NCBI GenBank assembly: GCA_029556545.1
Contig: JAKQEQ010000019.1
Location: 65,694 to 129,693, forward strand
From: Candidatus Hydrogenedentota bacterium
Lineage (GTDB): Bacteria; Hydrogenedentota; Hydrogenedentia; Hydrogenedentales; JAGMZX01
DNA: 64,000 nucleotides
Direction: 5' to 3'
The notes under the pieces were generated by a model that worked only from the letters and a program-made list of their open reading frames with translations, was not told the origin of the DNA and made no database searches. Positions 7,635 to 60,788 of the stretch are shown one piece after another. Numbering within the stretch: position 1 is the first letter of the stretch; each line of letters begins with the position of its first letter. The position numbers and the translations under genes are program-made.

Positions 7635-7653
7635 CCGCGCGGCCGGCACGCGG
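7635..7653 (+). repeat. 19-bp direct repeat, left copy, flanking a TA pair
   Basis: The 19 bases CCGCGCGGCCGGCACGCGG occur here and again in the same orientation at 8433-8451. The DUF433/DUF5615 pair (7720-8321) lies between them. The unit is itself an imperfect palindrome (CCGCG...CGCGG). Confidence 0.7.
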
Positions 7654-7719
7654 CATATTGACTCAGCGGAATGATGACCTGACGGTGATACTGTTAGTGC
7701 GCCGTGATGGTGTGCGGGT

Positions 7720-8085
7720 TCAGACCTCCCCGCTGAGTAGCCGACGCACACGAAGGGCGCCGTTGGTGACCGTAACGAAGTGATTCGGCGCCGCGTTGGC
7801 TATTGCGGGAAAGTGCTGTTGCACGAGATCAATGAATTCCCGGCGCGATGCTGTGTGCAGGCGTAGCAGTATGACGCCCGCCGCGCTACGCCGTTGGCGA
7901 AAGACGAGTTCTCCGAAGTCCTTATCCGCGGTAAGAAGCACCCGCTTTGTATCCAATGCCAGCCGAAGGACCTCCGAATCACCAGATCCGCGATTCGTTT
8001 CCCGAACACTGAGTACAGCGTGGCCTGCTGTGCGTAACCATGTCACCAAGAACGGCTCGATGTTTTCATCGGCGAGGATTCTCAC
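7720..8085 (-). CDS. DUF5615 PIN-like toxin
   Basis: A 121-residue protein beginning RILADENIEPFLVTWLRTAGH, the hallmark N-terminus of the DUF5615 PIN-like family. Acidic residues in LADEN, RGSGDSEVL and TADKDFGEL fit the metal site of PIN-fold ribonucleases. It is the likely toxin of a type II toxin-antitoxin pair. The GTG at 8085 overlaps the upstream DUF433 stop by 4 bases (GTGA), and the DUF5615 domain starts exactly at the second codon, so this start is preferred over a longer frame. RNase activity is inferred from the family, not shown here. Confidence 0.88.
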   Translation of the reverse strand: MRILADENIEPFLVTWLRTAGHAVLSVRETNRGSGDSEVLRLALDTKRVLLTADKDFGELVFRQRRSAAGVILLRLHTASRREFIDLVQQHFPAIANAAPNHFVTVTNGALRVRRLLSGEV

Positions 8086-8321
8086 CGCGTGCCTTCGGTG
8101 AGAAACACCGCCTCCTCGCGGGCAAGATAACACGCGGCGTAACTTTGCGCTGCCCGGATGTGTTCCGCGCTCAGATCAGGATAGGCTTCCAACAACTCCG
8201 TTACGGACCAGCCGTCGCCCAAGCGTTCGAGAACAAGCTCGACGGTGATGCGCGTGCCCATGAACACGGGTTTGCCAAGCATGACTTCCGGACGCTGTTC
8301 GATGTACTCTTGCCAATTCAT
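8082..8321 (-). CDS. DUF433 antitoxin
   Basis: A 79-residue DUF433 protein with a compact winged-helix-like fold: WQEYIEQRPEVMLGKPVFMGTR, then ITVELVLERLGDGWSVTELLEAYP and a final helix DLSAEHIRAAQSYAA. The GKPVFxGTRI stretch is the family signature. DUF433 proteins are antitoxins placed directly upstream of DUF5615 PIN-like toxins, as seen here with a 4-base overlap. The ATG at 8321 begins the conserved domain with no spare N-terminus. It probably neutralises the toxin and represses its own promoter. Confidence 0.9.
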   Translation of the reverse strand: MNWQEYIEQRPEVMLGKPVFMGTRITVELVLERLGDGWSVTELLEAYPDLSAEHIRAAQSYAACYLAREEAVFLTEGTR

Positions 8322-8432
8322 GCGGCTATGTCTCCATGACCGAAGAATACCAGAGGATGAGGTCCTGGGAAAAGAACAAACCGAGGAAGTCGCCTCGAAG
8401 GTGGGGCTCGCCCGAGCAGGATGCCCACGAAC

Positions 8433-8451
8433 CCGCGCGGCCGGCACGCGG
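8433..8451 (+). repeat. 19-bp direct repeat, right copy
   Basis: Identical to 7635-7653. It lies between the DUF433/DUF5615 and HicBA pairs. Just upstream, 8401-8428 is a GTGGGGCTCGCCC...GATGCCCAC dyad that looks like a degenerate family-B palindrome. Confidence 0.65.
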
Positions 8452-8514
8452 GGGCACGCGGGAAAGTGCGGATTTGCGTAGTGAGAGGCAACAAGGGTGT
8501 TGTTTCGTGCCTGC

Positions 8515-8715
8515 TTACTGGGGATTGTGCTCGGGTTTGCATGTAGTGAGCGTGCGGAGAATCCTCCTGGCCAAGCGTTCAGAAATCTCCGCATGGCGTG
8601 GCACCGCCTCAACGCGCCCAGTGTCCGGATTGTACCACAGCGAATGCGACGCGCCTTCTCGCTTCAGGCAGCAACCCGACCTGCGCAGGACCTTGAGAAG
8701 CGCTTCCCGCTTCAT
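8515..8715 (-). CDS. hicA: HicA family mRNA interferase toxin
   Basis: A 66-residue HicA protein with a double-stranded RNA-binding-like fold: MKREALLKVLRRSGCCLKREG, then ASHSLWYNPDTGRVEAVPRH. The conserved catalytic His is in GASHSLW, and the PRHAEI turn is typical. HicA toxins cleave mRNA when not bound by HicB. The start ATG overlaps the hicB stop by 4 bases (ATGA). Here the antitoxin gene comes first, opposite to the hicA-hicB order of E. coli, but this order is common among other HicBA pairs. Confidence 0.88.
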   Translation of the reverse strand: MKREALLKVLRRSGCCLKREGASHSLWYNPDTGRVEAVPRHAEISERLARRILRTLTTCKPEHNPQ

Positions 8716-8927
8716 TCAAGCGTGACCACTTCCCGTCGGGAATCCGGGGGGACGCCGCGGAGCATGTCCTCGCGCCGGTCTTCAAGGATTAGCGCAATGG
8801 CTTCGGCAAGGTTCTTCTTGCATTCCTCGACCGTGCGGCCTTGTCCATTTGCTCCGGGTACTTCCAGGCAATAGGCGACGTACCAGTCACCATCCTGCTC
8901 TACAATCGCGGTGAATTCGTTGTGCAT
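8712..8927 (-). CDS. hicB: HicB family antitoxin
   Basis: A 71-residue HicB protein with the partial RNase H-like fold: FTAIVEQDGDWYVAYCLEVPGANGQGRT, then VEECKKNLAEAIALILEDRRED. There is no obvious C-terminal DNA-binding helix-turn-helix, so this is the short HicB type. It should bind and mask HicA. The ATG at 8927 is favoured because an extended -10 element (8950-8958) sits just upstream, and an alternative Met eight codons earlier would lie in that promoter. GGAG precedes the ATG by about 10 bases. Confidence 0.87.
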   Translation of the reverse strand: MHNEFTAIVEQDGDWYVAYCLEVPGANGQGRTVEECKKNLAEAIALILEDRREDMLRGVPPDSRREVVTLE

Positions 8928-8949
8928 ATCCCATATCTCCGGCCACCGC

Positions 8950-8958
8950 ATTATAGCA
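8950..8958 (-). promoter_or_regulatory. Extended -10 promoter of hicBA
   Basis: On the minus strand the bases read TGCTATAAT, a perfect -10 hexamer with the extended TGn motif, about 22 bases before the hicB ATG. No good -35 lies at the usual distance, as expected for extended -10 promoters. A leader of about 16 nt is predicted. Confidence 0.5.
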
Positions 8959-9045
8959 TGTATTCCGCGCGGTGGTTTCTTTGCGCAGGTGGACAAACAC
9001 GGACACACATGGACCGAGACGGACGCCGCGCCGTGCGCTTTCCAA

Positions 9046-9798
9046 TTAGGACGCCCAGAGGTCCGCGTGGGCCGCGGCGCGGATGCGACAGCCCCATTCG
9101 AGGCGGAGCGAGGATTCGAGGTCCACGTGGCCGCCCGCCGCGCGGACCAACGCCGCGCCCGCCGCAACGTCCCAGAACATGATGTCGTCCTCGGCGTAGG
9201 CCTCGTAGCGGCCGCAGGCGACGTAAGCGAGCATGATCGCGGCGCTCCCCAGCAGCCGCAGTTTCTTGAACCTCTGCGCGTGTCGCACGAATTCCAGCAA
9301 CGACTCCTCCGAGTACGAGCGGTTCGTGGGAAACCCCGTGCTAAGAATCGACCGCGAACGCTCGCGAACCGCGGAAACGCGCATCGGCGCGCCGTTCAGC
9401 CACGCCCCTTCACTCACGACGCCGGTGAACAACTCGTCACGGTTGAAATCGTAGATGACACCGAGCAGCGGCTCGTTACCGCGCGCAAGCGCAATCGACA
9501 CCGCGCAGACCGGCGCGCCGCGTTGGAAATTCAGCGTGCCGTCGAGCGGGTCCACGATCCACGCGTCCACGTCCGCGCCGTAAGCGCCGTGCGTCCCGCT
9601 TTCCTCGGTCAGCACGGGGTGGGGGAGATCGCGCAGGACCTCGAGTATCCGCGCCTCGGCCTCGCGGTCCGCCTGCAGTTTGATGTCGCGGCCCTCTTCC
9701 TTGAGCACGACGCGCGGTTGCTGTATCGCATCGGCAAGGAACGCGCCCGCGTTCCGCGCCGCCGTTATCGCAAGGTCCAATTCGGCTTGATACCGCAT
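9046..9798 (-). CDS. Inositol monophosphatase family phosphatase
   Basis: A 250-residue FIG-superfamily phosphatase. The metal-binding motifs are present: LTEESGTHG (Glu-Glu pair, about 69-71), WIVDPLDGTLNF (about 80-91) and the C-terminal WDVAAGAALVRAAGG. Family members remove phosphate from inositol-1-P, PAP, fructose-1,6-bisphosphate or histidinol-P with Mg2+. It is the last gene of a five-gene minus-strand run and its ATG shares one base with the preceding dehydrogenase stop. With the GmhA-like isomerase in the same run it could be the sugar-phosphate phosphatase of that pathway; that role is inferred. Confidence 0.9.
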   Translation of the reverse strand: MRYQAELDLAITAARNAGAFLADAIQQPRVVLKEEGRDIKLQADREAEARILEVLRDLPHPVLTEESGTHGAYGADVDAWIVDPLDGTLNFQRGAPVCAVSIALARGNEPLLGVIYDFNRDELFTGVVSEGAWLNGAPMRVSAVRERSRSILSTGFPTNRSYSEESLLEFVRHAQRFKKLRLLGSAAIMLAYVACGRYEAYAEDDIMFWDVAAGAALVRAAGGHVDLESSLRLEWGCRIRAAAHADLWAS

Positions 9799-10727
9799 CA
9801 GGCGATTTCCAGGTCGCGCAACAGGTTCCGCACCGCCTGTATTTCCATGTCGCGTCGGCATTGGCGCGTGTACGTCCCCGCGTGCGGCGTGAGCAGCACC
9901 TGCGGATAGCGCGTGAGCGGACCTTCGTAGGGCTCGCTCCAGAAGGCGTCGAACCACGCCGCGCCCACTTTGCCCATATCGAGCGCCGCAACAAGCGCCG
10001 CCTCGTCCACAAGCTCGCCCCGCGCCGCATTGAGCAGCACGACGCCGTCGCGCATCCCCGCGAATTGGTCCGAACCCAGGATGCAGTCGGTTCCCGCGGC
10101 GTGCAACGACACAACGGCGGCTTCCGCCAGGCCGTTCTCGAGACGCGCCACGCGCGCGCCGATATCCGCCGCCGTCGCCTCCACATGCGGGTCGTACCAC
10201 AGGACCCGCGCGCCGAACGCCTCGATCAGCCGCGCAACGCGCCGCCCGATGTGCCCATAGCCGATCAGCAGCACCGACGTGCCCTCGAGGCCGAACCCGA
10301 TCATTTTCTTCCAGACGCCGCCGTGCAGCGCCTCGTTCATCGGGATCAGGTTGCGCGCCAGCGCCAACAGCGCCCCGACCGTCATCTCGGCGACCGCGCT
10401 TGCCGGGCCGTCCGGCGTACTCGACACGCGAATGCCCAGTTCCCGCGCGGCCTCGATGTCCACGTTGGTCATGCCGACGCCGACGCGCGCAATGGCTTTC
10501 AGGCGCGGCGCGGCGGACTCGAGCACCGCCCGGTTCAACGGTTCGAGACCTGCGAGCAACCCGTCCACACCTTGAAGATGCGCGATGGTTTCCCCTTCCG
10601 TGAGCCGCCGCCCGACCGGATTCGGCTTTACGGTTGCGCCCGTCTCCGCTAGCATGCACAGCGGGGTCGCGTCTTCTTTCGCAAAGGAAGACGGGCCTAT
10701 CGCGATACACAAGGGCGCATTGCGCAT
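9798..10727 (-). CDS. D-isomer specific 2-hydroxyacid dehydrogenase
   Basis: A 309-residue NAD-dependent dehydrogenase of the SerA/phosphoglycerate dehydrogenase family. The Rossmann motif is LLIGYGHIGRRVARL. The catalytic Arg lies in LNAARGELVDE, the Glu in SEPYEGPL and the His in TPHAGTYT, so the active site looks intact. It oxidises a D-2-hydroxyacid or reduces the matching 2-keto acid. The ATG at 10727 begins a normal-length family N-terminus and has a GGAGAGG-type site; the longer open frame upstream is not needed. It lies between the Gfo/Idh/MocA gene and the phosphatase. Confidence 0.9.
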   Translation of the reverse strand: MRNAPLCIAIGPSSFAKEDATPLCMLAETGATVKPNPVGRRLTEGETIAHLQGVDGLLAGLEPLNRAVLESAAPRLKAIARVGVGMTNVDIEAARELGIRVSSTPDGPASAVAEMTVGALLALARNLIPMNEALHGGVWKKMIGFGLEGTSVLLIGYGHIGRRVARLIEAFGARVLWYDPHVEATAADIGARVARLENGLAEAAVVSLHAAGTDCILGSDQFAGMRDGVVLLNAARGELVDEAALVAALDMGKVGAAWFDAFWSEPYEGPLTRYPQVLLTPHAGTYTRQCRRDMEIQAVRNLLRDLEIA

Positions 10728-10837
10728 GTCTCGCCGCCTCTCCATCGTTCCTGTTGTTCTGGCCACTCTCCTGCTCTTGTTCTGGCCGGTCTCCTGACCG
10801 AGCCAGTTACCGACCGCAGGTCTCCAACTATCAACCC

Positions 10838-11905
10838 TCAACTCGCGCCTCTCCCTCGGGGAGAGGGAGCACCAGGCGCCGAGGGCGACGCCATGAACGC
10901 GAGGTCATTCTCGTATATCGCAAACACCAATCGCATAGCCTTGAGCGCCTGTTCGCTGTTTCCCGTCGCAACCGGCGTGTCTTCGATCACGTGGCGGAGA
11001 AACTCATCCACTTCGCGTTCCCACGAAGGATCGGCGTCGAAGTAGATGACTTCCTCGCGCGGTGTGCCTTGCGCGAAACCGCTGTCGAACTGCCGCCGCG
11101 CCACGGAAATAGTCTCATCCCCGTAACTACGCGTCGAGGAGAGGATGCCGTTCACCGTCAGATAGCCCTCGCTGAGAAAGACCTCGAGACTGAAGCGATG
11201 CCGCCAATGGGTGCTCGAACTGTGCAGCATGGCGATACGGCCCGCCGCATCGCGGAGCAGGGCGAAAGCGTTGTCTTCGACCGCGATGTTCCAGTACGCG
11301 GTCGTCACCATGCTCTTCACCTCGACAAAGTCGCCGCAGAACATGCGCAGCAGATCGAGCATGTGAATGCCCTGGTCCAGGAGAATGCCCGCGCCGCTCA
11401 GTGCCTTGTCGCTCCGCCACTCTTGCTCGAACGCGGTCCCGCCCGACTTGCCGTAAACGCCGCGTAGCCAGAGGATGCGCCCGAGGCGGCCGCTGTCGAC
11501 GATGCGCTTTGCTTCTTGAATGCCCGCGTGGTAGCGGTGGTTGAATCCAAACTTGAGCTTGAGGCCGGGGGCGCGTCGTTCCGCGGCGATGATGTTCTCG
11601 ATGTCTTGGAGATTGCGACCCGGCGGCTTCTCCGAGAACACGTGCTTGCCCGCCTCGAGCGCGGCGATGACCACCTCCGGCGTATACCGGTTTGGCGTGC
11701 AGACACATACGGCGTCCACGTCCGCGTCCAATACCGCGCGATAGTCGCTCATGACGCGGACATGCGGAAACTCCCGAGAGAAGGCGTCCGGCCGCGGGTC
11801 CGCCCCGCAGACGAGCCGCGCCGCCGGGTGCTGTGCAAGCACGCGGGCGCGAATTCCGCCCATCTTCCCGAGGCCGATAATGCCGACTTTGATCACCTGA
11901 CTCAC
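10838..11905 (-). CDS. Gfo/Idh/MocA family oxidoreductase
   Basis: A 355-residue dehydrogenase with an N-terminal Rossmann motif (VGIIGLGKMGGIRARVL), the EKPPG motif (about residue 93) with the catalytic-type Lys, and the C-terminal substrate domain starting near FGFNHRYHAGIQEA. Family members oxidise or reduce sugars, inositols or their phosphates with NAD(P). The start is a GTG at 11905. The last ~12 residues (SPSAPGAPSPRGRG) are encoded by a palindromic repeat (10845-10879), so the C-terminus seems to have been extended by repeat insertion. It is co-directional with gmhA-like and hydroxyacid dehydrogenase genes. Confidence 0.92.
   Translation of the reverse strand: MSQVIKVGIIGLGKMGGIRARVLAQHPAARLVCGADPRPDAFSREFPHVRVMSDYRAVLDADVDAVCVCTPNRYTPEVVIAALEAGKHVFSEKPPGRNLQDIENIIAAERRAPGLKLKFGFNHRYHAGIQEAKRIVDSGRLGRILWLRGVYGKSGGTAFEQEWRSDKALSGAGILLDQGIHMLDLLRMFCGDFVEVKSMVTTAYWNIAVEDNAFALLRDAAGRIAMLHSSSTHWRHRFSLEVFLSEGYLTVNGILSSTRSYGDETISVARRQFDSGFAQGTPREEVIYFDADPSWEREVDEFLRHVIEDTPVATGNSEQALKAMRLVFAIYENDLAFMASPSAPGAPSPRGRGAS
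10845..10879. repeat. Palindromic repeat inside the 3' end of the Gfo/Idh/MocA gene
   Basis: CTCCCTC (10851-10857) and GAGGGAG (10863-10869) form a perfect 7-bp stem with a GGGGA loop. The outer GCGCCT/AGGCGC pair (10845-10850/10874-10879) can extend it. The element resembles the CCCTCTCCC...GGGAGAGGG palindromes scattered through many GC-rich genomes. Confidence 0.6.
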
Positions 11906-11914
11906 GTTCTCTTT

Positions 11915-11970
11915 CGTGGCATGGGCGTCTCTCCCATCGTTTCGAAATCACGGGCGATACGCCCGCGCCG
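11915..11970. repeat. Family B twin-hairpin palindromic repeat, copy 1
   Basis: A GTGGCATGGGCGTC...CCCAT half is followed by TCACGGGCGATACGCCCG. It lies between the GmhA-like and Gfo/Idh/MocA genes, inside the presumed operon. Better-preserved copies are at 16058-16115 and 35394-35448. Confidence 0.7.
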
Positions 11971-11973
11971 TGC

Positions 11974-12594
11974 TCAGTGGTGCAGCATCTTCCCGTGCCG
12001 CATGGTGAGGAAGCCGCAGAGGATATGCCCAAGCACTGAAAAGGCGTCCTCGACCGGGCCGTATTCATCCTTCGTCGTGGGCACGTGCGCCACGAGGTCG
12101 CATGCCTCCGCCAGACGTCCCCCCTCGAAACCGCACCAGCCAAGCGTGGTCGCGCCGCGCTCGCGCGCGAACACTATCGCGCGGACCACGTTTTCGCTGT
12201 TCCCGCTGACGGACATGGCCAGCACCACGTCGCCGGGTTCGAGGTGGACGCGCAACTGCCGCTCGAACACGTTGTCATAGCCCGCGTCGTTGGCTAGCGC
12301 CGTGACCGAAGGCACGTTGTCGCTCAGGCAAAGCGCCCGAAACGGTGGCGTGCCTTCCGCGTAGCCGCCAGCCACCAGATCATTCACGATGTGCGCCGCC
12401 ACGCCCGCGCTGCCGCCGTTCGCGACGAGATACAGTCTGTGCCCCGCGCGTGACGCTTGGTCGATGCAGTCCACCATGCTGTCGAGGATGCCTACGTCGA
12501 TACCGCCCAGCACCTCGTGCAGCCGTTCTACGTATTTCGGCGCATAGTCGGCCACCGAAGCCGACGACGCATACAATTCCGCGAGTTTGTACAA
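11974..12594 (-). CDS. SIS-domain sugar-phosphate isomerase, GmhA-like
   Basis: A 206-residue SIS protein resembling sedoheptulose-7-phosphate isomerase GmhA. The phosphate-binding motif is YLVANGGSAGVAAHIVNDL (about 55-73), and there is a second SIS Ser/Thr loop AMSVSGNSENVV. GmhA converts sedoheptulose 7-P to D-glycero-manno-heptose 7-P, the first step of heptose synthesis for surface glycans. The start is a TTG at 12594 supported by AAGGAG six bases upstream; no better ATG exists. It begins 3 bases after the methyltransferase stop. No kinase or GmhB/HldE partner is visible, so the exact pathway is unproven. Confidence 0.85.
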   Translation of the reverse strand: MYKLAELYASSASVADYAPKYVERLHEVLGGIDVGILDSMVDCIDQASRAGHRLYLVANGGSAGVAAHIVNDLVAGGYAEGTPPFRALCLSDNVPSVTALANDAGYDNVFERQLRVHLEPGDVVLAMSVSGNSENVVRAIVFARERGATTLGWCGFEGGRLAEACDLVAHVPTTKDEYGPVEDAFSVLGHILCGFLTMRHGKMLHH

Positions 12595-12597
12595 CGG

Positions 12598-13638: not shown

Positions 13639-13722
13639 GGGTGTTTCTCGACGTCGCGCCGCTCCTGAAAGAGCGATTACAGCAGAACACTTTCAGGCAA
13701 GTCAATCGGCGAACCACTCCGA

Positions 13723-14955: not shown

Positions 14956-15080
14956 GACTCAAGCTCCTTGGGCGGCGCGTCGGCGGCGCCTTGAAGCCGC
15001 TAACCGTTACGCCATTGCAGGAAAGGAAGTCACGAAATACACCCGTCGCCCCGGCTGGACATCCGCATGGGCGCGTGCGG

Positions 15081-15893: not shown

Positions 15894-15950
15894 CAGCTTA
15901 TCCGCGGTACTCCAACAAAACTGCCCATGGCGTGGTCCGCCGCCGCCGGA

Positions 15951-50945: not shown

Positions 50946-51604
50946 CCCTCGAAGCCCAACGCGGCCGCGCGCGACAAGTCTTCGAGCGCCTGCGCGCGGC
51001 CTACCCTGATCTGCGCTGTACCCTTGACTTCAACGGTCCCCTCGAACTACTCATCGCCACCATACTTGCCGCGCAATGCACTGACGCGCGCGTGAACATC
51101 GTTACGAAGAATCTGTTTCGCAAATATCGCAAGCCTGCGGACTACGTGAACGCGCCCATCGAGGAATTGCAGGAGGACATCCGGCCGTGCGGCTTCTACC
51201 GTAGCAAGGCCCGCAGCATCGTCAACACGTGTGCGAAACTCATTGATCGCTTCGACGGCGTCGTGCCCGGCACGATCGAGGAACTCCTCAGCCTCGACGG
51301 CGTCGGGCGCAAGACCGCCAACGTGATCCTCGGCGAATGTTTCGGCATGCAGGGGATCATCGTGGATACCCATTGCACGCGCATCAACCGCCGCCTCGGT
51401 TTCACGAAGCACGCGGACCCCGTCAAGATCGAGCGCGACCTCATGAAGGTCTGGCCCGAGGATCATTGGACCCTGTTCTCGCACGCGATGGTGTTTCATG
51501 GCCGCGCCGTGTGCACCGCCCGCGCGCCGCGATGCTCCCAATGTCCCGTGGCGGACCTCTGCCCGTTCCCGAGTTCCAAGGAAGGAAAACGCATTGCGAA
51601 ATGA
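50927..51604 (+). CDS. nth: Endonuclease III (DNA glycosylase/AP lyase)
   Basis: A 225-residue HhH-GPD glycosylase. The HhH region LLSLDGVGRKTANVILGE contains the catalytic Lys; VDTHCTRINRRLG carries the catalytic Asp. The C-terminal CTARAPRCSQCPVADLC binds a [4Fe-4S] cluster with the expected C-x6-C-x2-C-x5-C spacing. It removes oxidised pyrimidines in base excision repair. The start overlaps polX by 19 bp, with AAGGA upstream. It is followed by an overlapping CPBP-type membrane protein gene. Confidence 0.95.
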   Translation: MAKTALTLEAQRGRARQVFERLRAAYPDLRCTLDFNGPLELLIATILAAQCTDARVNIVTKNLFRKYRKPADYVNAPIEELQEDIRPCGFYRSKARSIVNTCAKLIDRFDGVVPGTIEELLSLDGVGRKTANVILGECFGMQGIIVDTHCTRINRRLGFTKHADPVKIERDLMKVWPEDHWTLFSHAMVFHGRAVCTARAPRCSQCPVADLCPFPSSKEGKRIAK

Positions 51605-52304
51605 TCCCGGAGATCACCGGCGGCGGGAGGAACGTCCTCAGCGACCGGCAACGCACCTACCACTCGCAACCGTGGTTGTGGCCTACGTCATCGTAGTCCT
51701 TGGCGTAGATACCCTCGCGGCCCTCGGCCTCGACTGGCCCCTTCGCTGGTCCTGGTTTCAATGGCAAGGACGCAACGGCTTCGACCTGTTCAAGTTCATC
51801 TTCTGGTTTGTTGTCCCGTTCCTCTGTTGCGTGCCGCGTATGGACTGGGACTGGTTCGGCATAAAACGATGGAAGCGTATAGATGCGATATTGCTCGCGC
51901 TGCTCGTGGCGTGCTGCGTCGGCGCGGTCCTGCTGGTCCCGTACCTCCCCGGCGTCCGCGACTACTACCGCCAATTCGGCGGCGCGCTATCCGCCGCACA
52001 GAAGTGGAACTTCTTCATTTTCCACCTGGTATGGACCTTCTCCTGGCTAATCGGCTGGGAGTTCCTGCACCGCTACGCGCTGCTGCGTCGCGCCGACGCC
52101 GCGTGGCCCCGCTTCGGCTGGCTCCTGGTGCCCCTCTCCGAAACGCTCTACCACCTGCAAAAGCCGCCCATCGAGGCCGCCGGCATGGCGCTGTTCGCCC
52201 TCGTCGCCACTGCCTGGACCCGCAACCGCCGCAATATGCTCGCCCCCTTCATCGCGCATCTCGCCATCGAAATCGCGCTCGGCCTCTTCCTCCTACTCGG
52301 CTGA
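51594..52304 (+). CDS. CPBP-type intramembrane protease-like protein
   Basis: A 236-residue protein with about six helices (TVVVAYVIVVLGVDTL, LFKFIFWFVVPFLCC, AILLALLVACCVGAVLLV and a C-terminal pair). WEFLHRYALL resembles motif 1 (ExxxR) of CPBP/Abi proteases, SETLYHLQKPPIEAAG gives the motif 2 His, and FIAHLAIEIALG the motif 3 His. The family includes CAAX-like proteases and bacteriocin-immunity proteins. The TTG at 51594 is favoured: AAGGAAGG lies 7 bases upstream and it overlaps the nth stop. The last 12 bases overlap an antisense Rieske-tail duplicate. Confidence 0.72.
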   Translation: MRNDPGDHRRREERPQRPATHLPLATVVVAYVIVVLGVDTLAALGLDWPLRWSWFQWQGRNGFDLFKFIFWFVVPFLCCVPRMDWDWFGIKRWKRIDAILLALLVACCVGAVLLVPYLPGVRDYYRQFGGALSAAQKWNFFIFHLVWTFSWLIGWEFLHRYALLRRADAAWPRFGWLLVPLSETLYHLQKPPIEAAGMALFALVATAWTRNRRNMLAPFIAHLAIEIALGLFLLLG

Positions 52305-52385
52305 CGCTTCCGTATCAATCGGCTGCGGCGACATGTAGATGTCGTCCCCCTCGACCGAGGAAGACAACGCGCTGGCGTCCGACAT
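52293..52385 (-). pseudogene. Duplicated 3' end of the Rieske gene (remnant)
   Basis: On the minus strand this 30-codon frame encodes VEGDDIYMSPQPIDTEASAE-stop, nearly the C-terminus of the Rieske protein at 52976-53311. Over about 55 bases (52301-52355 against 52983-53037) only about five differ, and the stop codon falls at the same place. The first ten codons are unrelated. It is a remnant of a duplicated Rieske 3' end, or of a second Rieske gene lost when the 52.4-52.95 kb segment arrived. Confidence 0.65.
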
Positions 52386-52398
52386 TGTATTCGCCCTA

Positions 52399-52947: not shown

Positions 52948-52975
52948 CCGCGCGTCATTTGCGGCGCGCCTACAC

Positions 52976-53311
52976 TTAATCCGCTGACGCTTCCGTATCG
53001 ATCGGACGCAGCGACACGTAGATGTCGTCCCCCTCGACTTTCACGGCATATCGCCGCAGCGGCGCGTCGCCGCCGCGAAGACAATCCCCGGTGCGCAGAT
53101 CGTATTGCCAGCCGTGGCGCGGGCACGTCACCACATCCCCCTGACGGCTGCCCGTGCTCAGGTCCGCCCCCTGGTGCCGGCAGCCAATCTCCATCGCCCG
53201 AAAAGACCCGTCGGCCTCGCGAAACACCGCCACTGGCCGCGTCAACACGCGATAGACCCGCATCGGTTTACCCTCGAAGTCCTTCCGCGACGCTAACTTC
53301 ACATAGTCCAT
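52976..53311 (-). CDS. Rieske-type [2Fe-2S] ferredoxin
   Basis: A 111-residue protein with the Rieske cluster motif: EIGCRHQGADLSTG (Cys44, His46) and VTCPRHGWQYDL (Cys63, His66), spaced as in Rieske ferredoxins of dioxygenase systems. GxCLxG follows. Probably a soluble electron carrier in the cytoplasm. The ATG at 53311 starts the conserved fold and has GGGAG 6 bases upstream; the longer frame is not used. Its C-terminal ~20 codons are duplicated at 52293-52355. It is divergent from the DUF1858/IscA/YgfZ genes. Confidence 0.9.
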   Translation of the reverse strand: MDYVKLASRKDFEGKPMRVYRVLTRPVAVFREADGSFRAMEIGCRHQGADLSTGSRQGDVVTCPRHGWQYDLRTGDCLRGGDAPLRRYAVKVEGDDIYVSLRPIDTEASAD

Positions 53312-53471
53312 GCACGGCTCCCGCAAGGCGCGCCCGCCGCGGTACGGTCCAGGAATGGTTTCGGACCCGCGAATGTTAAGCATACAGAACGCATTGTGCG
53401 CGTACTTCCTTGATTTCGCGGGGATTATACTTCATGCTAGCCCCCACGAGAACAAGGAGCTTTGGATACCC

Positions 53472-53714: not shown

Positions 53715-53721
53715 GCGCCCC

Positions 53722-54075: not shown

Positions 54076-54079
54076 TTCC

Positions 54080-55864
54080 ATGGGTATCCTCCAGGAAATC
54101 GAAGCCGTTCGCCGCGGCGTTGGGCTGTGGCGGCGCGTAGACCACACGGTGCTTCGTGTCACGGGCAACGACGCCGGTCCGTGGCTCCAGTCCCAGACGA
54201 CCAACGACGTGCTCGCGCTCCGCGACGGCGAAGGGTTGCGCAACGCGCTGCTGGACCGGCAGGGCCGCGTTCTGGCCCATTTCACCACCCATCGCTTCGA
54301 AGATGAGTTCTGGCTGATCATCGAGAAGGCATGTGTCACCGCCGTCCTCGATCGCGTCGCAACCCACGTGTTTCTCGAAGATGTTCACGTCGAGGACGTC
54401 GGCGGCGACGCGCCCCAGTTGCTCGTGGAGGGGCCGCGCAGCTTGCTTTTCCTCAACACGCTGTCCGCCCCCTCCGTCAGACCGCCCGAAGAAGCGACGG
54501 CCCTGCTCCCGACCGCGCCGTTCGCCTTCGCGCCCGCGATCCTGCTGGGATACGAGGCGCTGGTCTTCCGCATGAGCGAGTCCGGCGAAGATGGCTTTCT
54601 GATTGTGACCGCGACGGAGCAAGCCGAAACGCTGTTCAGCGCCATCGAGGCGCGGGGCCCCGAGTTCACCGCCGAAGTCGTGGGCGAGGCCGCGCGCGAC
54701 GTGCTGCGCATTGAGGCGGCCACCCCGCGTTACGGCCTCGATCTAGATGTCCATTCCGTAATCGCCGAAACACCCCTCGCGCAGGACGCCGTGAGCTACA
54801 CGAAAGGTTGCTATCTCGGCCAAGAGGTCGTAGCCCGCCTCAAAGCCTACGGCGCGCCCAAGTTTGCCCTCATGGGACTCATCGTCGAGGACCGGAACGT
54901 GTCGTTGCCGGGACCCGGCGCGACGCTGGTAGTTGGGGGCAAACGCGTTGGCGTGCTGCGCAGCGCGGCCTTCTCGCCCGCGCGCGACCGCTGGATCGCC
55001 TTGGCTTCCCTTGATCGCGACCATCGCGCGCCCGGCGCGTCGCTGGATCTGGCGGCGCGGGAGCGGGGGCGTCCCGCCCCCGAAACAACAGCCCTGCGCG
55101 CGCGCGTCGTCGCGCTTCCCTTCCACACCCCCCCGTCGCGCGTCGAATACGCCCAGAGCCTGTACGAACAGGCGCTCGAACGCTTTCAGCAGGACCCCGA
55201 AGACCGGGACCAGACGGCCATCCATCTATTGCAGAACGCCGTGTCGTTGCACCCGACCTACGAGGACGCGTACGAGGCGCTGGGCGTCATCCTGCACCGC
55301 CAGTGCCGCACCGAAGAAGCCATCCGGCACATGCGCACGCTCGCGAAGCTGAATCCGAATGCCGTCATGGCCCACACGAACCTCTCCGTCTTCTACGTGG
55401 CCAAGGGCATGATCCGCGAAGCCGAGGAGGAGAAGGCCCTCGCGCGGCAACTCGAAATGAAATCGCAACTCGATGCCCGTGCCGCGCGACAAACCGCGGA
55501 CCGGGAGCGCGCGCGTATTCGCCGGGAAGCCGAGGATCGCGTCGCTATGTTTCTCGAGGTGCTCGACATCGACCCCGAGGACCCCGTCGCCACCCTCGGC
55601 CTTGGCGGCGCATACATGCAATTGGAGCAATACGCCGAAGCCGCGCCGTTCCTCGAAACAGCCGTCCGCGTCAAGAAAGACTATAGCGCGGCCTACCTCA
55701 AGCTGGGCGAATGCCGCGAACGTCTCGGCGACCTGGCTGCCGCCGCGCGTGTCTATCGCCGCGGCATCGAGGCGGCAAGCCGGAAGGGAGACCTCATGCC
55801 CCTGCGGGAGATGGAGCGCCGCCTCGCGGCAATCGAGGCAACGTCGGAAACAGCCGGTCTTTAG
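54080..55864 (+). CDS. YgfZ/GcvT-like folate-binding protein fused to TPR repeats
   Basis: A 594-residue protein. Residues ~1-340 are the YgfZ/IbaG57 type: VLRVTGNDAGPWLQSQTTNDV, LLDRQGRVLAHFTTHRF, LRIEAATPRYGLDLD and the signature KGCYLGQEVVARLKAYG (about 242-258). YgfZ/Iba57 works with A-type carriers in [4Fe-4S] assembly, matching the IscA gene 4 bases upstream. Residues ~355-590 are TPR motifs (YEDAYEALGVILHRQCRTEEAIRHM, PVATLGLGGAYMQLEQYAEAAPFL). The fusion may let it bind partners. A 17-bp family-B hairpin core (55065-55081) is in frame at about residue 329. Confidence 0.88.
   Translation: MGILQEIEAVRRGVGLWRRVDHTVLRVTGNDAGPWLQSQTTNDVLALRDGEGLRNALLDRQGRVLAHFTTHRFEDEFWLIIEKACVTAVLDRVATHVFLEDVHVEDVGGDAPQLLVEGPRSLLFLNTLSAPSVRPPEEATALLPTAPFAFAPAILLGYEALVFRMSESGEDGFLIVTATEQAETLFSAIEARGPEFTAEVVGEAARDVLRIEAATPRYGLDLDVHSVIAETPLAQDAVSYTKGCYLGQEVVARLKAYGAPKFALMGLIVEDRNVSLPGPGATLVVGGKRVGVLRSAAFSPARDRWIALASLDRDHRAPGASLDLAARERGRPAPETTALRARVVALPFHTPPSRVEYAQSLYEQALERFQQDPEDRDQTAIHLLQNAVSLHPTYEDAYEALGVILHRQCRTEEAIRHMRTLAKLNPNAVMAHTNLSVFYVAKGMIREAEEEKALARQLEMKSQLDARAARQTADRERARIRREAEDRVAMFLEVLDIDPEDPVATLGLGGAYMQLEQYAEAAPFLETAVRVKKDYSAAYLKLGECRERLGDLAAAARVYRRGIEAASRKGDLMPLREMERRLAAIEATSETAGL
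55065..55081. repeat. Family B hairpin core inside the ygfZ-TPR gene
   Basis: GGGGGC-GTCCC-GCCCCC is a perfect stem whose core GGGCGTCCCGCCC is identical to the first hairpin of the family-B copy at 35394-35448. Read in frame it gives RGRPAPE, a linker just before the TPR part. Confidence 0.6.
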
Positions 55865-55867
55865 AAT

Positions 55868-56194
55868 CTATCCCCGCCGCAGGCGTTTCAGAATCGCGTA
55901 GGCTTCGTTCAAAGCGCGCATGGCGTCCTCATCGCCGCCGAGATCGGGATGATGTATCTTCGCCTTGCGCCGGTACGCGCGCTCGACCTCTTCCCACGGC
56001 GCGGACGGTGAAACTCCCAGCAGGCGACAGCAGACTTCGACGTCGTGCTTGCTTGGCGGCGGAGGATCCTCGACCGCTTCGCCGCGCAACTGTCGCAACG
56101 CGCGCAACACCACGGGCCACAGACCCGACCAACTCAGCACGATGATGATGAGCAGCAGGAACATGAACTCGTTGAAACCGGTCGTGGGCAACAT
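55868..56194 (-). CDS. Membrane-anchored J-domain protein
   Basis: About 108 residues. An N-terminal hydrophobic helix (FMFLLLIIIVLSWSGLWPVVL) is followed by a short basic linker and a J domain at the C-terminus: CRLLGVSPSAPWEEVERAYRRKAKIHHPDLGGDEDAMRALNEAYAIL with the HPD tripeptide. Such DjlA/TerB-like or TIM14-like small proteins recruit DnaK to the membrane. The ATG at 56194 is chosen (5 bp after the rhomboid stop); a GTG at 56209 would overlap that gene. Confidence 0.85.
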   Translation of the reverse strand: MLPTTGFNEFMFLLLIIIVLSWSGLWPVVLRALRQLRGEAVEDPPPPSKHDVEVCCRLLGVSPSAPWEEVERAYRRKAKIHHPDLGGDEDAMRALNEAYAILKRLRRG

Positions 56195-56199
56195 GTCCC

Positions 56200-57027
56200 T
56201 TACTTCCACTCCTTGTCCTTGAACTTCAGGATATTGTCGATGATCTTGCCCAGTTCCTCATCCTCTTCGCCCGGCGGCGCGGGCGGCGCGGGCCGGGCGC
56301 GCACCCGCCGTTCGCGCGCCCACCGATTGTACGCCGGCAACAGCCGCATATAGACGTAGCCGAAAGCCATCCCCCCGAAATGCGTCGCCACGGACACATT
56401 CGTCTGCATCAAGGCGTAGAGCACGTTAATCACCACGAGGATCAGCAGCAGCGCGCGCCCGTTCACCGGAACGGGAAACGGAAACAGGAGATACTCCCGG
56501 TCCAGGTCAATCAACACAAACGCGACGACTACCCCCATCACCGCGCCGCTTGCCCCCGTCACCGACGGAAACCGGTGCAGCGCGCCGACCGACAGAAAAT
56601 CGGGGATCAGGTTCGCCAGCACGGCCACGGCCCCGCACACCACGTAGAAACGGAGAAAGCGCCGCGACCCGACGGTCCGCTCCAGGCCGGGACCGAAAAA
56701 GAACAGCAGCAGCATGTTCCAGAACAGGTGAGAAAGCCCCCCGTGCAGAAACTGGTACGTTAGCGGCTTCCAGACATGGCCCCGAACGAACAAGTCGGAC
56801 TGAAAGCCCAGCCAGGTGTTCACCACGTCGCCGCCCGGCGCATGTTGCGGATAGAACCCGGTGAACCGCCCCGCAAGCGCCCCGTCAATCCACAGGCTTG
56901 ACGGAATATCCAGCACAAGCTGCCACGCGAAGACAACGGTATTCAGCAGAATAAGCCGCTGCACCGCCCACGTGATGGGCGGCCTTAGAAAACGAATCGG
57001 CTCGTGATACTCGTATGGTCGGGTCAT
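56200..57027 (-). CDS. Rhomboid-family intramembrane serine protease
   Basis: A 275-residue protein with six helices. The catalytic Ser160 is in GASGAVMG and His216 in THFGGMAFG, giving the rhomboid Ser-His dyad. The helix 2 motif FLHGGLSHLFWNM (His95, His100, Asn104) supplies the oxyanion side. It cleaves transmembrane proteins in the lipid bilayer. The C-terminal ~45 residues form a charged, Pro-rich cytoplasmic tail ending in a predicted helix. It is followed by a J-domain protein gene 5 bp downstream. Confidence 0.94.
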   Translation of the reverse strand: MTRPYEYHEPIRFLRPPITWAVQRLILLNTVVFAWQLVLDIPSSLWIDGALAGRFTGFYPQHAPGGDVVNTWLGFQSDLFVRGHVWKPLTYQFLHGGLSHLFWNMLLLFFFGPGLERTVGSRRFLRFYVVCGAVAVLANLIPDFLSVGALHRFPSVTGASGAVMGVVVAFVLIDLDREYLLFPFPVPVNGRALLLILVVINVLYALMQTNVSVATHFGGMAFGYVYMRLLPAYNRWARERRVRARPAPPAPPGEEDEELGKIIDNILKFKDKEWK

Positions 57028-57101
57028 CGCACGCTGCTTCGCCACTCGATTGCGCGGACATTATAGAACACGGAAACCGCCCAATGCCCCATGAGTCACT
57101 G

Positions 57102-57668
57102 TTACTCGCCCCGCATATTCGTCAGCAGGTAGGACGGCGCCCGACCCCAGCGGTCGTAAGGGTAATAGCGGAAACACACCCGCCCCACAATGCCGTGTTG
57201 CGGCTGCGCCTGCCGCGTCAGATGGTCGTCGTCGCTGGCGTTGCGGTTGTCGCCGAGTAGAAAGACGAAGCCTTCCGGTACGCGCACTTTGTTCAGTACG
57301 TACGCCATCGGCTCGCGAATATACGGCTCCGACGCATACGCGCCGTTGAGGAACAGCGCCCCGTCCACCACCGCGATATCGTCGCCCGGCACGCCGATGA
57401 TGCGCTTGACTGCGTAGCCATCGGCGTCCTCAAACACCACAATGTCCCCGCGCCCGTATTCCGTTGCGTTCAACGTGACCAAGTGGTCGCCTGGCAGCAG
57501 CGTCGGCTCCATCGACCGGCTCGGCACCTCGAAAAAACGCATTCCGCGAAATCCAAAGAAATAGATGCCGACCAGACACAAAGCCAGAATAACGATCAGC
57601 CCCACCTGGTGACTGGTGAGGAAGCTCCACAAGGCCCCCCTCAGACGCCGCATCCTTGGCGCACTCAT
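57102..57668 (-). CDS. lepB: Signal peptidase I
   Basis: A 188-residue type I signal peptidase. One N-terminal transmembrane helix (VGLIVILALCLVGIYFFGF) is followed by box B PSRSMEPTL with catalytic Ser52, box C/D YGRGDIVVF and YAVKRIIGVPGD with catalytic Lys88, and box E GDNRNASDD (Asn instead of the usual Ser). It cleaves signal peptides outside the membrane. The length is on the short side but complete. The ATG overlaps the preceding TPR gene stop by 4 bases. Confidence 0.93.
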   Translation of the reverse strand: MSAPRMRRLRGALWSFLTSHQVGLIVILALCLVGIYFFGFRGMRFFEVPSRSMEPTLLPGDHLVTLNATEYGRGDIVVFEDADGYAVKRIIGVPGDDIAVVDGALFLNGAYASEPYIREPMAYVLNKVRVPEGFVFLLGDNRNASDDDHLTRQAQPQHGIVGRVCFRYYPYDRWGRAPSYLLTNMRGE

Positions 57669-58585
57669 CGGATGGGCTCGCCCCGACGAAGCCCCTCGAG
57701 CAGCGTCCGCGCCGAATCGTTCCCCGGATGCCGCCGCAGGCTCTCCGCAAGCGTCCGTTCAGCCCGTGCGTCCTGCCCCGCCCAAATCCAGGCCCGGCCC
57801 TCGTTCAGCCACGTGAAAAACACCTCGTTCCGGTCGCGCGCACAGGGCCGCGCCTGCCGCCATGCCGCCGCCGCGCGCGTCCAGTCCGGCGTTACGCCGA
57901 ACTGTTCCGCCGCGAAAAAATTGACCGCGTAATCCTGAAGGAGTTCGAAGTCGCCCGGCGCCAGTCGCACGGCGCGCTCCAGGAGTTTCATGGCTTCCTT
58001 ATATACGCGGTCCTTCTTCCATTCCCGCGCGCCGCCCACGGCTTCTGGGATGTTTAGGTATATTTGCGATAGGTTACAGATGAATTCGGCGCTTTTCGGC
58101 GCCAATTCGACCGCGCGATCCATATAATCCAGCCCCAGGCGCACCTGACCCGTTCGGCACAGGTGCATCCCGAAATTGTTGTAGGCCGCCGCATTCCCCC
58201 CGTCCAGCGAAATGGCCTTGGTCCAGGATGCCACCGCCCCCGCCGCGTCGCCGTAGCGGTCGTACAGCAACTCGCCGTAGTAAGTCCGCAGCCGTGCGTT
58301 CGCCCCGTATCGATGGAGGCCGAATTCATACGCCTGTCGCAGCGCGTCGAAAGACTCACGGGCCTCCCGCCGCAGCGTCTCCGCAGCCGTTGCGTTGCCC
58401 GCCCGCTCCTCGATATCGGCCCGGGCGTTCGCCAGGCGCGCGCGTTGTTGGCACAGCTTGTCCGCCGCGCGCAAGGCGTCCACGAAGGCCGATTCCTGCC
58501 CGACGACCGGCGCCAGATGTTCGAGGGTCGGCGGCAACGCCGGGCCTTGGGCGCAAAGCATCAAGAGCAAGAGTTCGGTAAGCAT
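57665..58585 (-). CDS. TPR-repeat protein
   Basis: A 306-residue protein. The hydrophobic N-terminus (MLTELLLLMLCAQGPAL) looks like a signal peptide. Tetratricopeptide units follow: AYEFGLHRYGANARLRTYYGELLYDRYGDAAGAVASW, AISLDGGNAAAYNNFGMHLCRTGQVRLGLDYM, AVELAPKSAEFICNLSQIYL and LLERAVRLAPGDFELLQDYAVNFFAAEQF. They mediate protein contacts in the periplasm. Coupling to lepB is by a 4-base overlap. Function unknown. The ATG at 58585 and a GTG at 58588 are adjacent start choices. Confidence 0.82.
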   Translation of the reverse strand: MLTELLLLMLCAQGPALPPTLEHLAPVVGQESAFVDALRAADKLCQQRARLANARADIEERAGNATAAETLRREARESFDALRQAYEFGLHRYGANARLRTYYGELLYDRYGDAAGAVASWTKAISLDGGNAAAYNNFGMHLCRTGQVRLGLDYMDRAVELAPKSAEFICNLSQIYLNIPEAVGGAREWKKDRVYKEAMKLLERAVRLAPGDFELLQDYAVNFFAAEQFGVTPDWTRAAAAWRQARPCARDRNEVFFTWLNEGRAWIWAGQDARAERTLAESLRRHPGNDSARTLLEGLRRGEPIR

Positions 58586-58667
58586 CACGTCATTCCCGTT
58601 GGCTGAGGAGCGTCCCCCGCATGGTATCAGAACCGTGCTGTGCCGCCCAAGCGATGACCGTGTGCTC

Positions 58668-59912
58668 TCAAGCGGGCTCGTAAACGGGATGCGGGTTAAT
58701 CAGTCGGCCGTCGCGCGGCTCGACCACAACGATGCCGTTCGGCGTGATTCGGAAGTCGCGCGCGTCTTTATCGAGATCGTAGCCGATGATGGCGTTCTCG
58801 GGAATGCGCACGTTCTTCTCGATGATGGCGCGTCGGATGCGAGCATGCCGCCCCACGCGGACCCCGTGGAGAAGGATGGATTCCTCGACGTGCGAGTAGC
58901 TGTTTACGCGCACCTCCGGTGAAAGAACGCATCGCCGAACCATGCCGCCGCTGACGATGCAGCCCGGGCTCACGATGGAATCCACCGCGACCCCGAAGCG
59001 CTGACCTTCGTCCGCGAACACGAACTTCGCCGGCGGCAATTGAGGCATGTGCGTGCGCAATGGCCAATCCCTGTCGTAGAGATTGAACAACGGGTCCACC
59101 TCAACCAAGTCCATGTTAGATTCCCAGTAGGCGTCGATGGTCCCAACGTCGCGCCAGTACTGAGCCTGCTTCTTGTTCTCGTCCAGGAAGTTGTAAGCGA
59201 ATACCATATGCGTATCGACGAGCTTCGGAATGACATCCTTCCCGAAATCGTGCGACGTGAGATCCGCGTCCGCGTCCGCGAGTACCGACCGCTTCAGCAC
59301 CTCGGTCTCGAATACATAGATGCCCATTGAGGCCAGCGCCGTATCCGGTCGGCCCGGCATCGGCTTCGGGTCGTCCGGCTTCTCCTCGAAGCCCAACACC
59401 CGTCCGTCGGAGTCCGTCTCCATGATCCCGAATCGGCCGCCCTCGGCGATGGGCACCTCGATGGTCGCGATCGTCAGGTCGGCCTCGTGCTCCTTATGAA
59501 ACGCGAGCATCTTGCCGTAGTCCATCTTGTAAATATGGTCCCCTGAGAGGATAAGCACGTATTTCGGGTCTTCCTGGTCTATCGAGTAGAGGTTCTGGTA
59601 AATGGCGTCCGCCGTGCCCAGGTACCAGTGGTGGTTCACGCGCATTTGCGGCGGGATGATGTCGATGTATTCCCCGTATTCCGGGCGCAAGACGTCCCAG
59701 GCGGAGCGAATGTGGCGGACCAGCGAATTCGACTTGTACTGCACCAGCACGTGGACGCGGCGCACACCCGAATTCATGCAGTTCGACAGGGTGAAGTCGA
59801 TAATTCGATAGGTGCCGCCGAAAGGCACCGCAGGCTTCGCGCGGTTCTTCGTCAGCGGATACAGCCGCTCCCCGGCCCCCCCGGCCAGCAGTACGGCAAG
59901 CACATCCTTCAT
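58668..59912 (-). CDS. glgC: Glucose-1-phosphate adenylyltransferase
   Basis: A 414-residue ADP-glucose pyrophosphorylase. The N-terminal nucleotidyltransferase has LLAGGAGERLYPLTKNRAKPAVPFGG (about 8-33), YLGTADAIYQNLY and SGDHIYKMDYGKML; FGIMETDSDGRVLGFEEKP and YWRDVGTIDAYWESNMDL are family-specific. A left-handed beta-helix C-domain (about 320-414) carries hexapeptide repeats such as VRRCVLSPEVRV. It makes ADP-glucose for glycogen synthesis. The ATG at 59912 is right for the family; earlier in-frame codons are shadow. GGGGAGG lies upstream. Confidence 0.95.
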   Translation of the reverse strand: MKDVLAVLLAGGAGERLYPLTKNRAKPAVPFGGTYRIIDFTLSNCMNSGVRRVHVLVQYKSNSLVRHIRSAWDVLRPEYGEYIDIIPPQMRVNHHWYLGTADAIYQNLYSIDQEDPKYVLILSGDHIYKMDYGKMLAFHKEHEADLTIATIEVPIAEGGRFGIMETDSDGRVLGFEEKPDDPKPMPGRPDTALASMGIYVFETEVLKRSVLADADADLTSHDFGKDVIPKLVDTHMVFAYNFLDENKKQAQYWRDVGTIDAYWESNMDLVEVDPLFNLYDRDWPLRTHMPQLPPAKFVFADEGQRFGVAVDSIVSPGCIVSGGMVRRCVLSPEVRVNSYSHVEESILLHGVRVGRHARIRRAIIEKNVRIPENAIIGYDLDKDARDFRITPNGIVVVEPRDGRLINPHPVYEPA

Positions 59913-60024
59913 CGCGTACCACCCTCCCCGCCGTCGTACAGGCACGGCGTTATTTCCACTGCGCCTCTGCCCTGCCGTCACAACGTGCCGCGCCCGTCCG
60001 GGCGCATTCCGACCCCACCCATTA

Positions 60025-60033
60025 ATTATAACA
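60025..60033 (-). promoter_or_regulatory. Extended -10 promoter of glgC
   Basis: On the minus strand TGTTATAAT, an extended -10 with perfect TATAAT, about 115 bases before the glgC ATG in a locally AT-rich patch. No good -35. Confidence 0.45.
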
Positions 60034-60109
60034 TCAATTCCGGCAATTTGTCTTCCGAGCCCTGGTCCACGCAAGCGACCTCAGAACGGGAGCCTTCCCC
60101 GCCCACGTC

Positions 60110-60131
60110 CCGTTCCATGTCGGAACAGCGT
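60110..60131 (+). repeat. 22-bp repeat, left copy, flanking the RelE/Phd pair
   Basis: CCGTTCCATGTCGGAACAGCG plus T. It matches 60767-60788 at 21 of 22 positions in the same orientation. The unit contains a GTTCC...GGAAC palindrome. The RelE/Phd pair lies between the copies. Confidence 0.75.
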
Positions 60132-60166
60132 CGAGTGCTCTGCAACGCCGTGGCGAGACGAGGCGG

Positions 60167-60412
60167 CTAGCGACGGGACTTTGGGGCAGGTGGGCGATTT
60201 TCCAAGCCCAACACCTTCTTGGCGCGACGGAGGGGAACCGTCGGTGCGTCGGCCTCTTCGGCTTTCGCGATACGCAGTTGCTTAATGTCTTCGTACTCTT
60301 GAAGATGCTCCTCGATTGCGACGAATTCGTCGTAAGTAAGCACCACAAATGCCTTTTTACCGTCGTATTCGAGTATCTTGGGATGAATGGCCTGCATGTC
60401 CGTTTTCCTCAT
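60167..60412 (-). CDS. Phd/YefM-like antitoxin
   Basis: An 81-residue protein with AIHPKILEYDGKKAFVVLTYDEFVAIEEHLQEYEDIKQLRIAKAEE. The strand-turn-strand followed by an amphipathic helix is typical of Phd/YefM-type antitoxins or short relatives. The stretch after it (VPLRRAKKVLGLENRPPAPKSRR) is basic. Its ATG overlaps the toxin stop by 4 bases (ATGA), so the toxin gene comes first, an order also seen in HigBA. A second start at 60397 has a good GAGGA site. It should bind and block the RelE-type toxin. Confidence 0.75.
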   Translation of the reverse strand: MRKTDMQAIHPKILEYDGKKAFVVLTYDEFVAIEEHLQEYEDIKQLRIAKAEEADAPTVPLRRAKKVLGLENRPPAPKSRR

Positions 60413-60684
60413 GGCCTATAGACTTCCCGCCTGTGGCGTACGCGGTACACCACGGCGCGATGGTTGTCCGCTAACTCGAAAAGCACGCGATATACCCCTA
60501 CGCGCAGCCGGTATTCGGGCGTGAAGTTCGTTAAGCGCTTCACGTCACCGGTCAGGTTGTGTTCTAGTCGTTCTAATGCTGTGACGACTCGACGTTGGTC
60601 GCCCTTCGAAAGCACCCTCAAGTCCTTGAGGGCTTGTGGTTTCAACTCGACGACATACCGCACGACGCCAGTGTACCATCTCAT
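60409..60684 (-). CDS. RelE/ParE-family toxin
   Basis: A 91-residue RelE-fold protein: YVVELKPQALKDLRVLSKGDQRRVVTALERLEHNL, then VKRLTNFTPEYRLRVGVYRVLFEL and AVVYRVRHRREVYRP. The RLRVGVYRVLFE strand pair and the final RHRREVY with basic/aromatic residues match RelE toxins, which cut mRNA in the ribosomal A site. The partner is the Phd/YefM-like gene overlapping by 4 bases. The ATG at 60684 is used; no strong SD is visible. 22-bp repeats flank the pair. Confidence 0.85.
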   Translation of the reverse strand: MRWYTGVVRYVVELKPQALKDLRVLSKGDQRRVVTALERLEHNLTGDVKRLTNFTPEYRLRVGVYRVLFELADNHRAVVYRVRHRREVYRP

Positions 60685-60766
60685 GATTCGTTGGGCAAGG
60701 TGGTGTTCACGTCGGTGTTGATGCTCACGTCGGGATTCAATGAGGGCGTTCCCCCTATAGCATTTT

Positions 60767-60788
60767 CCGTTCCATGCCGGAACAGCGT
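60767..60788 (+). repeat. 22-bp repeat, right copy
   Basis: CCGTTCCATGCCGGAACAGCG plus T, the partner of 60110-60131 with one difference. It lies between the RelE start and the surface-protein gene. Confidence 0.75.

Follow-up and report, generated by a model that had tools for sequence, protein, structure and literature searches.

Direct repeats and duplicated gene ends bracket small toxin-antitoxin-like modules in a Candidatus Hydrogenedentota genome

Results

We analyzed a 64,000-nucleotide stretch of the genome of a Candidatus Hydrogenedentota bacterium (assembly GCA_029556545.1, contig JAKQEQ010000019.1, positions 65,694 to 129,693; the whole stretch is called the window here), in which three pairs of small genes, named sites 1 to 3 in order of position, each lie between direct repeats. 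At site 2 and at several toxin-antitoxin (TA) loci elsewhere in the phylum, the repeats are copies of the end of a neighboring gene, which is most simply explained if the module came in already linked to the end of a homologous gene. A first-pass annotation, made from the sequence alone, had pointed out the three repeat pairs. Their coordinates held on reanalysis, except that the right copy at site 2 now extends to 53038 and the repeat there runs to the stop codon of the Rieske gene described below, and the pairs exceed chance expectation. Under an order-5 Markov null model, exact direct repeats of at least 19 nt spaced no more than 2 kb apart had a mean of 0.017 per window versus two observed, which rules out chance in GC-rich DNA as their source. 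The other long local repeats in the window were all coding, chiefly within a low-complexity stretch at 61.7 to 64 kb. The annotation had also seen no recombinase, and none lies inside the brackets.

Site 2 is the best resolved of the three. An Rce1-like gene (51498 to 52304, plus strand) is followed by two small uncharacterized genes, P1 and P2, and then by a convergent Rieske [2Fe-2S] gene (52976 to 53383, minus strand; Pfam E = 1.4e-17), which is the duplicated neighbor. The right repeat (52976 to 53038 in plus-strand coordinates) is the 3′ end of the intact Rieske gene, with its TAA stop codon. The left repeat (52293 to 52355) is an orphan copy of this 3′ end, read on the minus strand and located where the Rce1-like and Rieske genes natively meet. 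It retains a TAG stop codon in the Rieske frame, overlapping the end of the Rce1-like gene, whose own stop codon falls inside the repeat. Each copy is 63 nt long, and the two are 89% identical over 62 nt, with exact runs of 17 and 21 nt. Comparison with relatives, proposed in the first-pass annotation as a check for clean empty sites, recovered such a site in five genomes (G010, G014, G016, G030, and G037), where the Rce1-like and Rieske genes are convergent, with adjoining 3′ ends and no insert. Given that the left copy lies at the native junction and the right copy ends the working gene, the insert at site 2 is made up of P1, P2, and one further Rieske end. In the same-genus genome G001, other small genes stand beside the Rieske end; our search for a second Rieske end there gave one copy only, with the contig breaking at that point.

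The same arrangement is seen at loci outside the window. Many bracketing repeats consist of the last 29 to 300 bp of a neighboring gene, with homology stopping at the stop codon. For six such gene-end loci (site 2, L096, L210, L211, L212, and L217), which were pooled for analysis, homology reaches the stop codon in every case, with no useful continuation beyond it. At several loci, the other boundary falls at an arbitrary point inside the duplicated gene; the copy adjoining the module belongs to the complete gene, and the orphan is the one beside the native neighbor. In L217 (genome G014), a VapBC module lies between two 207-bp, 98% identical copies of a sulfatase 3′ end, and the same-genus genomes G026 and G034 provide the empty site, lacking about 1 kb between the sulfatase and histidine kinase genes. 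In L212 (G004), a DUF433/DUF5615 module lies between 76-bp copies of a gene 3′ end; same-genus G029 has a single gene end and no module there, with a different downstream region. A related genome with one copy and no insert is thus at hand for site 2 and L217 and in part for L212. Another DUF433/DUF5615 module (L211, G004) is bracketed by 300-bp copies of a gene 3′ end, and the VapBC module adjoining it lies between copies of the 5′ region of a second gene, giving two adjacent bracketed modules. The shortest case is L210 (G000, contig C192), where a 29-bp gene end with its stop codon is repeated. At site 2, L096, L217, and L212, the last gene of the module converges on the duplicated gene, with 12 to 28 nt between the stop codons.

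Gene starts are also duplicated. Upstream of ispG (L209, 3350 to 7143 of contig C122 in G000), we found a stack in the order VapBC, ispG 5′ fragment, VapBC, ispG 5′ fragment, ParDE, and intact ispG, and a DUF1801-type gene is likewise duplicated at its 5′ end. Repeat lengths are 19, 22, and 63 nt in the window and reach 300 elsewhere, and this variation departs from the fixed short target duplication of insertion sequences and transposons.

To put a number on this association, we aligned the left and right flanks of toxin genes in four genomes (G000, G001, G004, and G014), counting scores of at least 18 as matches. Direct repeats bracketed 18 of the 67 top-scoring ParE, PIN, and DUF5615 loci versus 61 of 1,500 random intervals (Fisher P = 9e-10), the latter an imperfectly matched control because most random intervals fall within genes. 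By family, 5/13 DUF5615, 6/26 ParE, and 7/28 PIN loci reached the threshold. When flanks were compared across loci, the 99th percentile of this null was 15 to 15.5, with a single outlier that scored 57, in the PIN set. A score of 19 was reached in 4.1% of random intervals, drawn from stretches of the window's genome totaling 740 kb, window included; on our reading, those with high scores are tandem paralogs, coding repeats, or palindromes resembling repetitive extragenic palindromic (REP) elements. After inspection, about 10 of the 18 loci retained clean, locus-specific brackets, the rest being TA paralogs, REP-like, or low complexity (L141, L166, L169, L179, L194, L200/L157 in the ispG stack, and L203). 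As the first-pass annotation had suggested from three sites, the architecture recurs, each time with its own repeat, and it does so with other TA families elsewhere in the genome and the phylum. The data do not support it as a trait of all TA loci: among 33 weaker PIN loci there was one match, a terminator-like repeat, and the bracketing scar was absent from all nine TA loci tested in Escherichia coli K-12.

Differences between the two copies bear on their origin. Over the six gene-end loci, 29 of 45 changed codons were synonymous and 16 non-synonymous, compared with a neutral synonymous expectation of about 24% (P = 1e-8) and with about 37% where one of the two had drifted as an orphan (P = 2e-4), the latter figure taking neutral rates to be equal and the working copy to be strongly constrained. 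Without L211, 16 of 23 changes were synonymous (P = 0.002). L212 and L096 have synonymous differences only. Differences in L211 are patchy, with a longest identical run of 95 of 300 nt (P = 5e-4), a pattern as after gene conversion. Because the differences are mostly synonymous, the gene-end copies probably diverged as working genes; this suggests that one copy came from a donor and points to imported homologous flanks.

The repeats at sites 1 and 3 are shorter (19 and 22 nt) and non-coding. At site 1, exact copies of the 19-mer CCGCGCGGCCGGCACGCGG (7635 to 7653, upstream of lysS, which starts at 7534 on the minus strand, and 8433 to 8451) enclose a putative DUF5615 (PIN-like) toxin open reading frame (ORF) (7720 to 8133, minus strand; PF18480, E = 1e-24), a GTG-started frame whose true start may be downstream, and a putative DUF433 antitoxin (8082 to 8321, minus strand, ATG at 8321; PF04255, E = 8.4e-21). 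Adjoining them on the minus strand (8515 to 8927) are HicA (8515 to 8715; Pfam HicA, E = 2.6e-8) and a HicB-like ORF (8712 to 8927; UPF0150-like, E = 6e-4, below the cutoff), and the interval between lysS and the inositol monophosphatase gene therefore holds two TA modules. At site 3, 22-mers with one mismatch (60110 to 60131, on the 5′ side of a glmU-type gene at 58668 to 60074 on the minus strand, and 60767 to 60788) enclose a putative antitoxin (60167 to 60412, minus strand), which has a weak RelB-like NCBIfam match below the cutoff and gave no match in a Pfam search, and a ParE/RelE-type toxin (60409 to 60684, minus strand; PF05016, E = 4.5e-9; PHROG RelE-like, E = 1.6e-12). Of the three pairs, that at site 3 matches a toxin family through ParE, DUF5615/DUF433 at site 1 is TA-like by family only, and the pair at site 2 has no family match. 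Same-genus G001 was set aside as a close comparison genome: contig breaks fall close to site 1 (110 bp upstream of lysS) and to site 2 in that genome, and different genes stand upstream of its glmU.

Two further repeated sequences occur near site 3. Directly to its right (60820 to 60865) is a GGTCGGATC-type tandem sequence that recurs intergenically in many genomes of the phylum, one copy of which, in G037, sits at the empty junction of the Rce1-like and Rieske genes. An Ig-domain gene carries near its 3′ end (61157 to 61207) a 46- to 51-bp stretch that has 98 to 100% identical copies at several other places in the genome and may represent a C-terminal sorting tail that these places share.

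In the whole 6,116,581-base assembly, the site 1 19-mer and the 20-mer core of the site 3 repeat have exactly two copies each, and a scan of the 740-kb sample found no near-copies above shuffled controls. Since they are present nowhere else in the genome, the site 1 and site 3 repeats are not REP elements, which would occur as many extragenic copies, as in bacterial interspersed mosaic elements. The first-pass annotation had named abundant REP-type repeats as one observation that would overturn its proposal, and these counts rule them out as the cause of the three sites. REP-like repeats do bracket some other loci. In G000, a 198-amino-acid ORF lies between REP-like palindromes with a GTAG lead (GTAGACGAGGCTTCCAGCCTCGT; L056, 6846 to 7576 of contig C9) and looks like a candidate REP-associated tyrosine transposase unit. 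Further palindromic repeats in that genome (CTCGTTCCCAAGTTGCACTTGGGAACG, GGCACGGGCGTCTCGCCCGTG, GGAGACC-rich) occur at L090 (10520 to 12407), L076 (293 to 3079), and L070 (5626 to 8742).

The genes inserted at site 2, P1 (52475 to 52708, plus strand; 77 amino acids) and P2 (52708 to 52947, plus strand; 79 amino acids, starting at ATG 52708 rather than GTG 52579), had no family match in Pfam, NCBIfam, or PADLOC. P1 is modeled as a beta-alpha-beta-beta-beta fold and P2 as an SH3-like barrel; fold searches with these models gave no confident family among the matches listed, with weak SH3-like matches for P2 (best E = 0.003) and none for P1. Relatives of the pair are scattered over unrelated bacteria (Alphaproteobacteria, Gammaproteobacteria, Nitrospira, Aquicultor, and others; L094 to L107) and conserve the motifs HWYEA-GIGKKE-KIK in P1 and DESGEDYLYP in P2. 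In an alphaproteobacterium (L096), a convergent gene is duplicated over its last 18 codons (55 bp), and P1-P2, with P1 damaged, lies between the two copies, both of which have a stop codon. The first part of this P1 is replaced by a hairpin element whose ends read TTTCGGTGACAGTGCAC and GTGCACTGTCACCGAAA (L096, 301 to 405). In Candidatus Aquicultor (L103), P2 and only the end of P1 lie between 42-nt repeats at a gene start. No bracketing repeat was seen in the flanks of most other P1-P2 relatives.

Discussion

Of the repeat-mediated capture originally proposed for these sites, the shared architecture stands; what changes is the nature of the repeats, which in the best-resolved cases are copied ends of neighboring genes rather than recombined signals. 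On balance, we favor the hypothesis that TA modules enter the chromosome here on donor DNA that carries the end of a homologous neighboring gene, G′. The donor G′ would pair with the resident gene G and recombine homologously, and the far end of the donor fragment would join illegitimately inside G; alternatively, a small circle carrying the G′ end and the module could integrate by a single crossover. On either route, G would remain intact, and repeated rounds would stack modules with orphan gene ends between them. The flanking direct repeats would normally permit deletion of the insert, and TA addiction would select against its loss.

Several observations weigh against entry on donor DNA. No donor genome was found in which G′ is directly followed by the module, and the L217 copies are 98% identical, so that any donor there must be very close. 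Site 2 taken alone has 3 synonymous and 4 non-synonymous differences, which fits simple duplication followed by decay of the orphan. L103 duplicates a gene start region (42 bp) beside a truncated P1, and the repeats at L218 and L219 are not clear gene ends. The non-coding repeats at sites 1 and 3 offer too little sequence for an assignment, and a shared origin with the gene-end cases is putative there. Retention of the inserts by addiction is likewise putative.

The chief rival is insertion with long target duplication, in which fill-in of paired nicks or of a staggered break, and joining to a foreign fragment, would leave 19 to 300 bp of resident sequence in two copies. We regard this as the less likely course, though a serious one. 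Restriction-modification systems in Helicobacter pylori show the same architecture, insertion with a long and variable target duplication, in the accounts given by papers that cite the original report (Nobusato et al. 2000, Gene 259:99, as cited in PMC3031569 and PMC1643837). The long, variable flanking repeats seen here (19 to 300 bp) are as such a process predicts; sites 1 and 3, L219, and L103 fit it well, as do the differences at site 2. In all six gene-end cases, however, homology ends at the stop codon, which a random stagger should usually overrun, and the pooled copy differences are mostly synonymous. Simple duplication of resident DNA is therefore disfavored for these cases while staying a rival, and import is favored because a stagger has no reason to end at a stop codon, whereas homology between lineages naturally does.

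Other explanations fare worse. Integrative elements typically leave long imperfect repeats at gene 3′ ends, restoring the gene, and the brackets could accordingly be attL/attR scars of such elements later reduced to a TA module. We consider this very unlikely: repeat sequence and target gene change from locus to locus, which would call for many independent integrases, ispG and the DUF1801-type gene are duplicated at their 5′ ends, and the inserts are 0.6 to 1 kb with TA genes only. That the bracketing repeats are REP-type or other dispersed palindromes, low-complexity sequence, or chance is no more credible as a general account. It does describe the repeats at L203, L216, L121, L179, and L229, and short inverted repeats lie inside sites 1 and 3; against it stand the two genome-wide copies of the site 1 and 3 repeats and the coding nature of the site 2 repeat, where it is already refuted. 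Least probable of all is a tandem duplication of the gene end first, with TA insertion between the copies later. Such a history would yield an identical final structure, but it requires two events per locus, and the 740 kb of genome sampled showed no such tandem duplication free of a TA module.

The arrangement shares features with several known systems. As with long target duplication by restriction-modification systems, a small addictive module lies between long, variable local repeats, with an empty site in relatives and no recombinase in the insert. Going by the citing papers' descriptions, the cases here differ in their TA cargo of several families, their occurrence in another phylum, repeats that end at stop codons, and mainly synonymous copy differences. 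Searching titles and abstracts, with subscription papers mostly outside coverage, we found no paper reporting long target duplication for TA modules. In the effector-immunity displacement arrays of the Vibrio cholerae type VI secretion system, attributed to homology-facilitated illegitimate recombination (PMC5361080), a module brings along part of a homologous gene that anchors it, as proposed here; homology up to the stop codon and synonymous divergence agree with such an anchor. In those arrays, the earlier gene end is displaced and orphaned, and repetition builds up the array; the ispG fragments of L209 and the two adjacent bracketed modules at L211 correspond to this. Whereas the anchor gene in Vibrio is functionally part of the module, the anchors here would be unrelated core genes (Rieske, sulfatase, and ispG). 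Type II TA modules are known from intergenic islets, such as ccd between folA and apaH in E. coli O157:H7, and a 2020 review called their mechanism of integration unelucidated (PMC7167474). The modules described here are similarly small insertions between conserved genes, absent in relatives; unlike them, the tested E. coli K-12 loci have no brackets. They also resemble integron gene cassettes, which are small, promoter-poor, often TA, and sometimes in tandem, but they have no shared attC-like recombination site, and their repeats are copies of neighboring genes that differ at each site.

The entry of a TA module that has no recombinase of its own can be read from the gene-end copies that bracket it. 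With their empty sites, these copies supply dated examples, open the way to tests of donor alleles and of deletion, and offer a practical route to the insertion boundaries of uncharacterized pairs such as P1-P2. They also tie TA modules to the insertions with long target duplication described for restriction-modification systems, the other classic kind of addiction module. More tentatively, the TA modules on chromosomes of this phylum, and now and then of other bacteria, might be recombinase-free hitchhikers on gene ends, moved by general homologous recombination at neighboring core genes that would stay intact on entry and exit, with TA addiction preserving an insert that would otherwise be deleted through its own flanking repeats. 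In that case, direct repeats would enclose more TA modules than expected, since cargo that is not addictive would be lost from between them.

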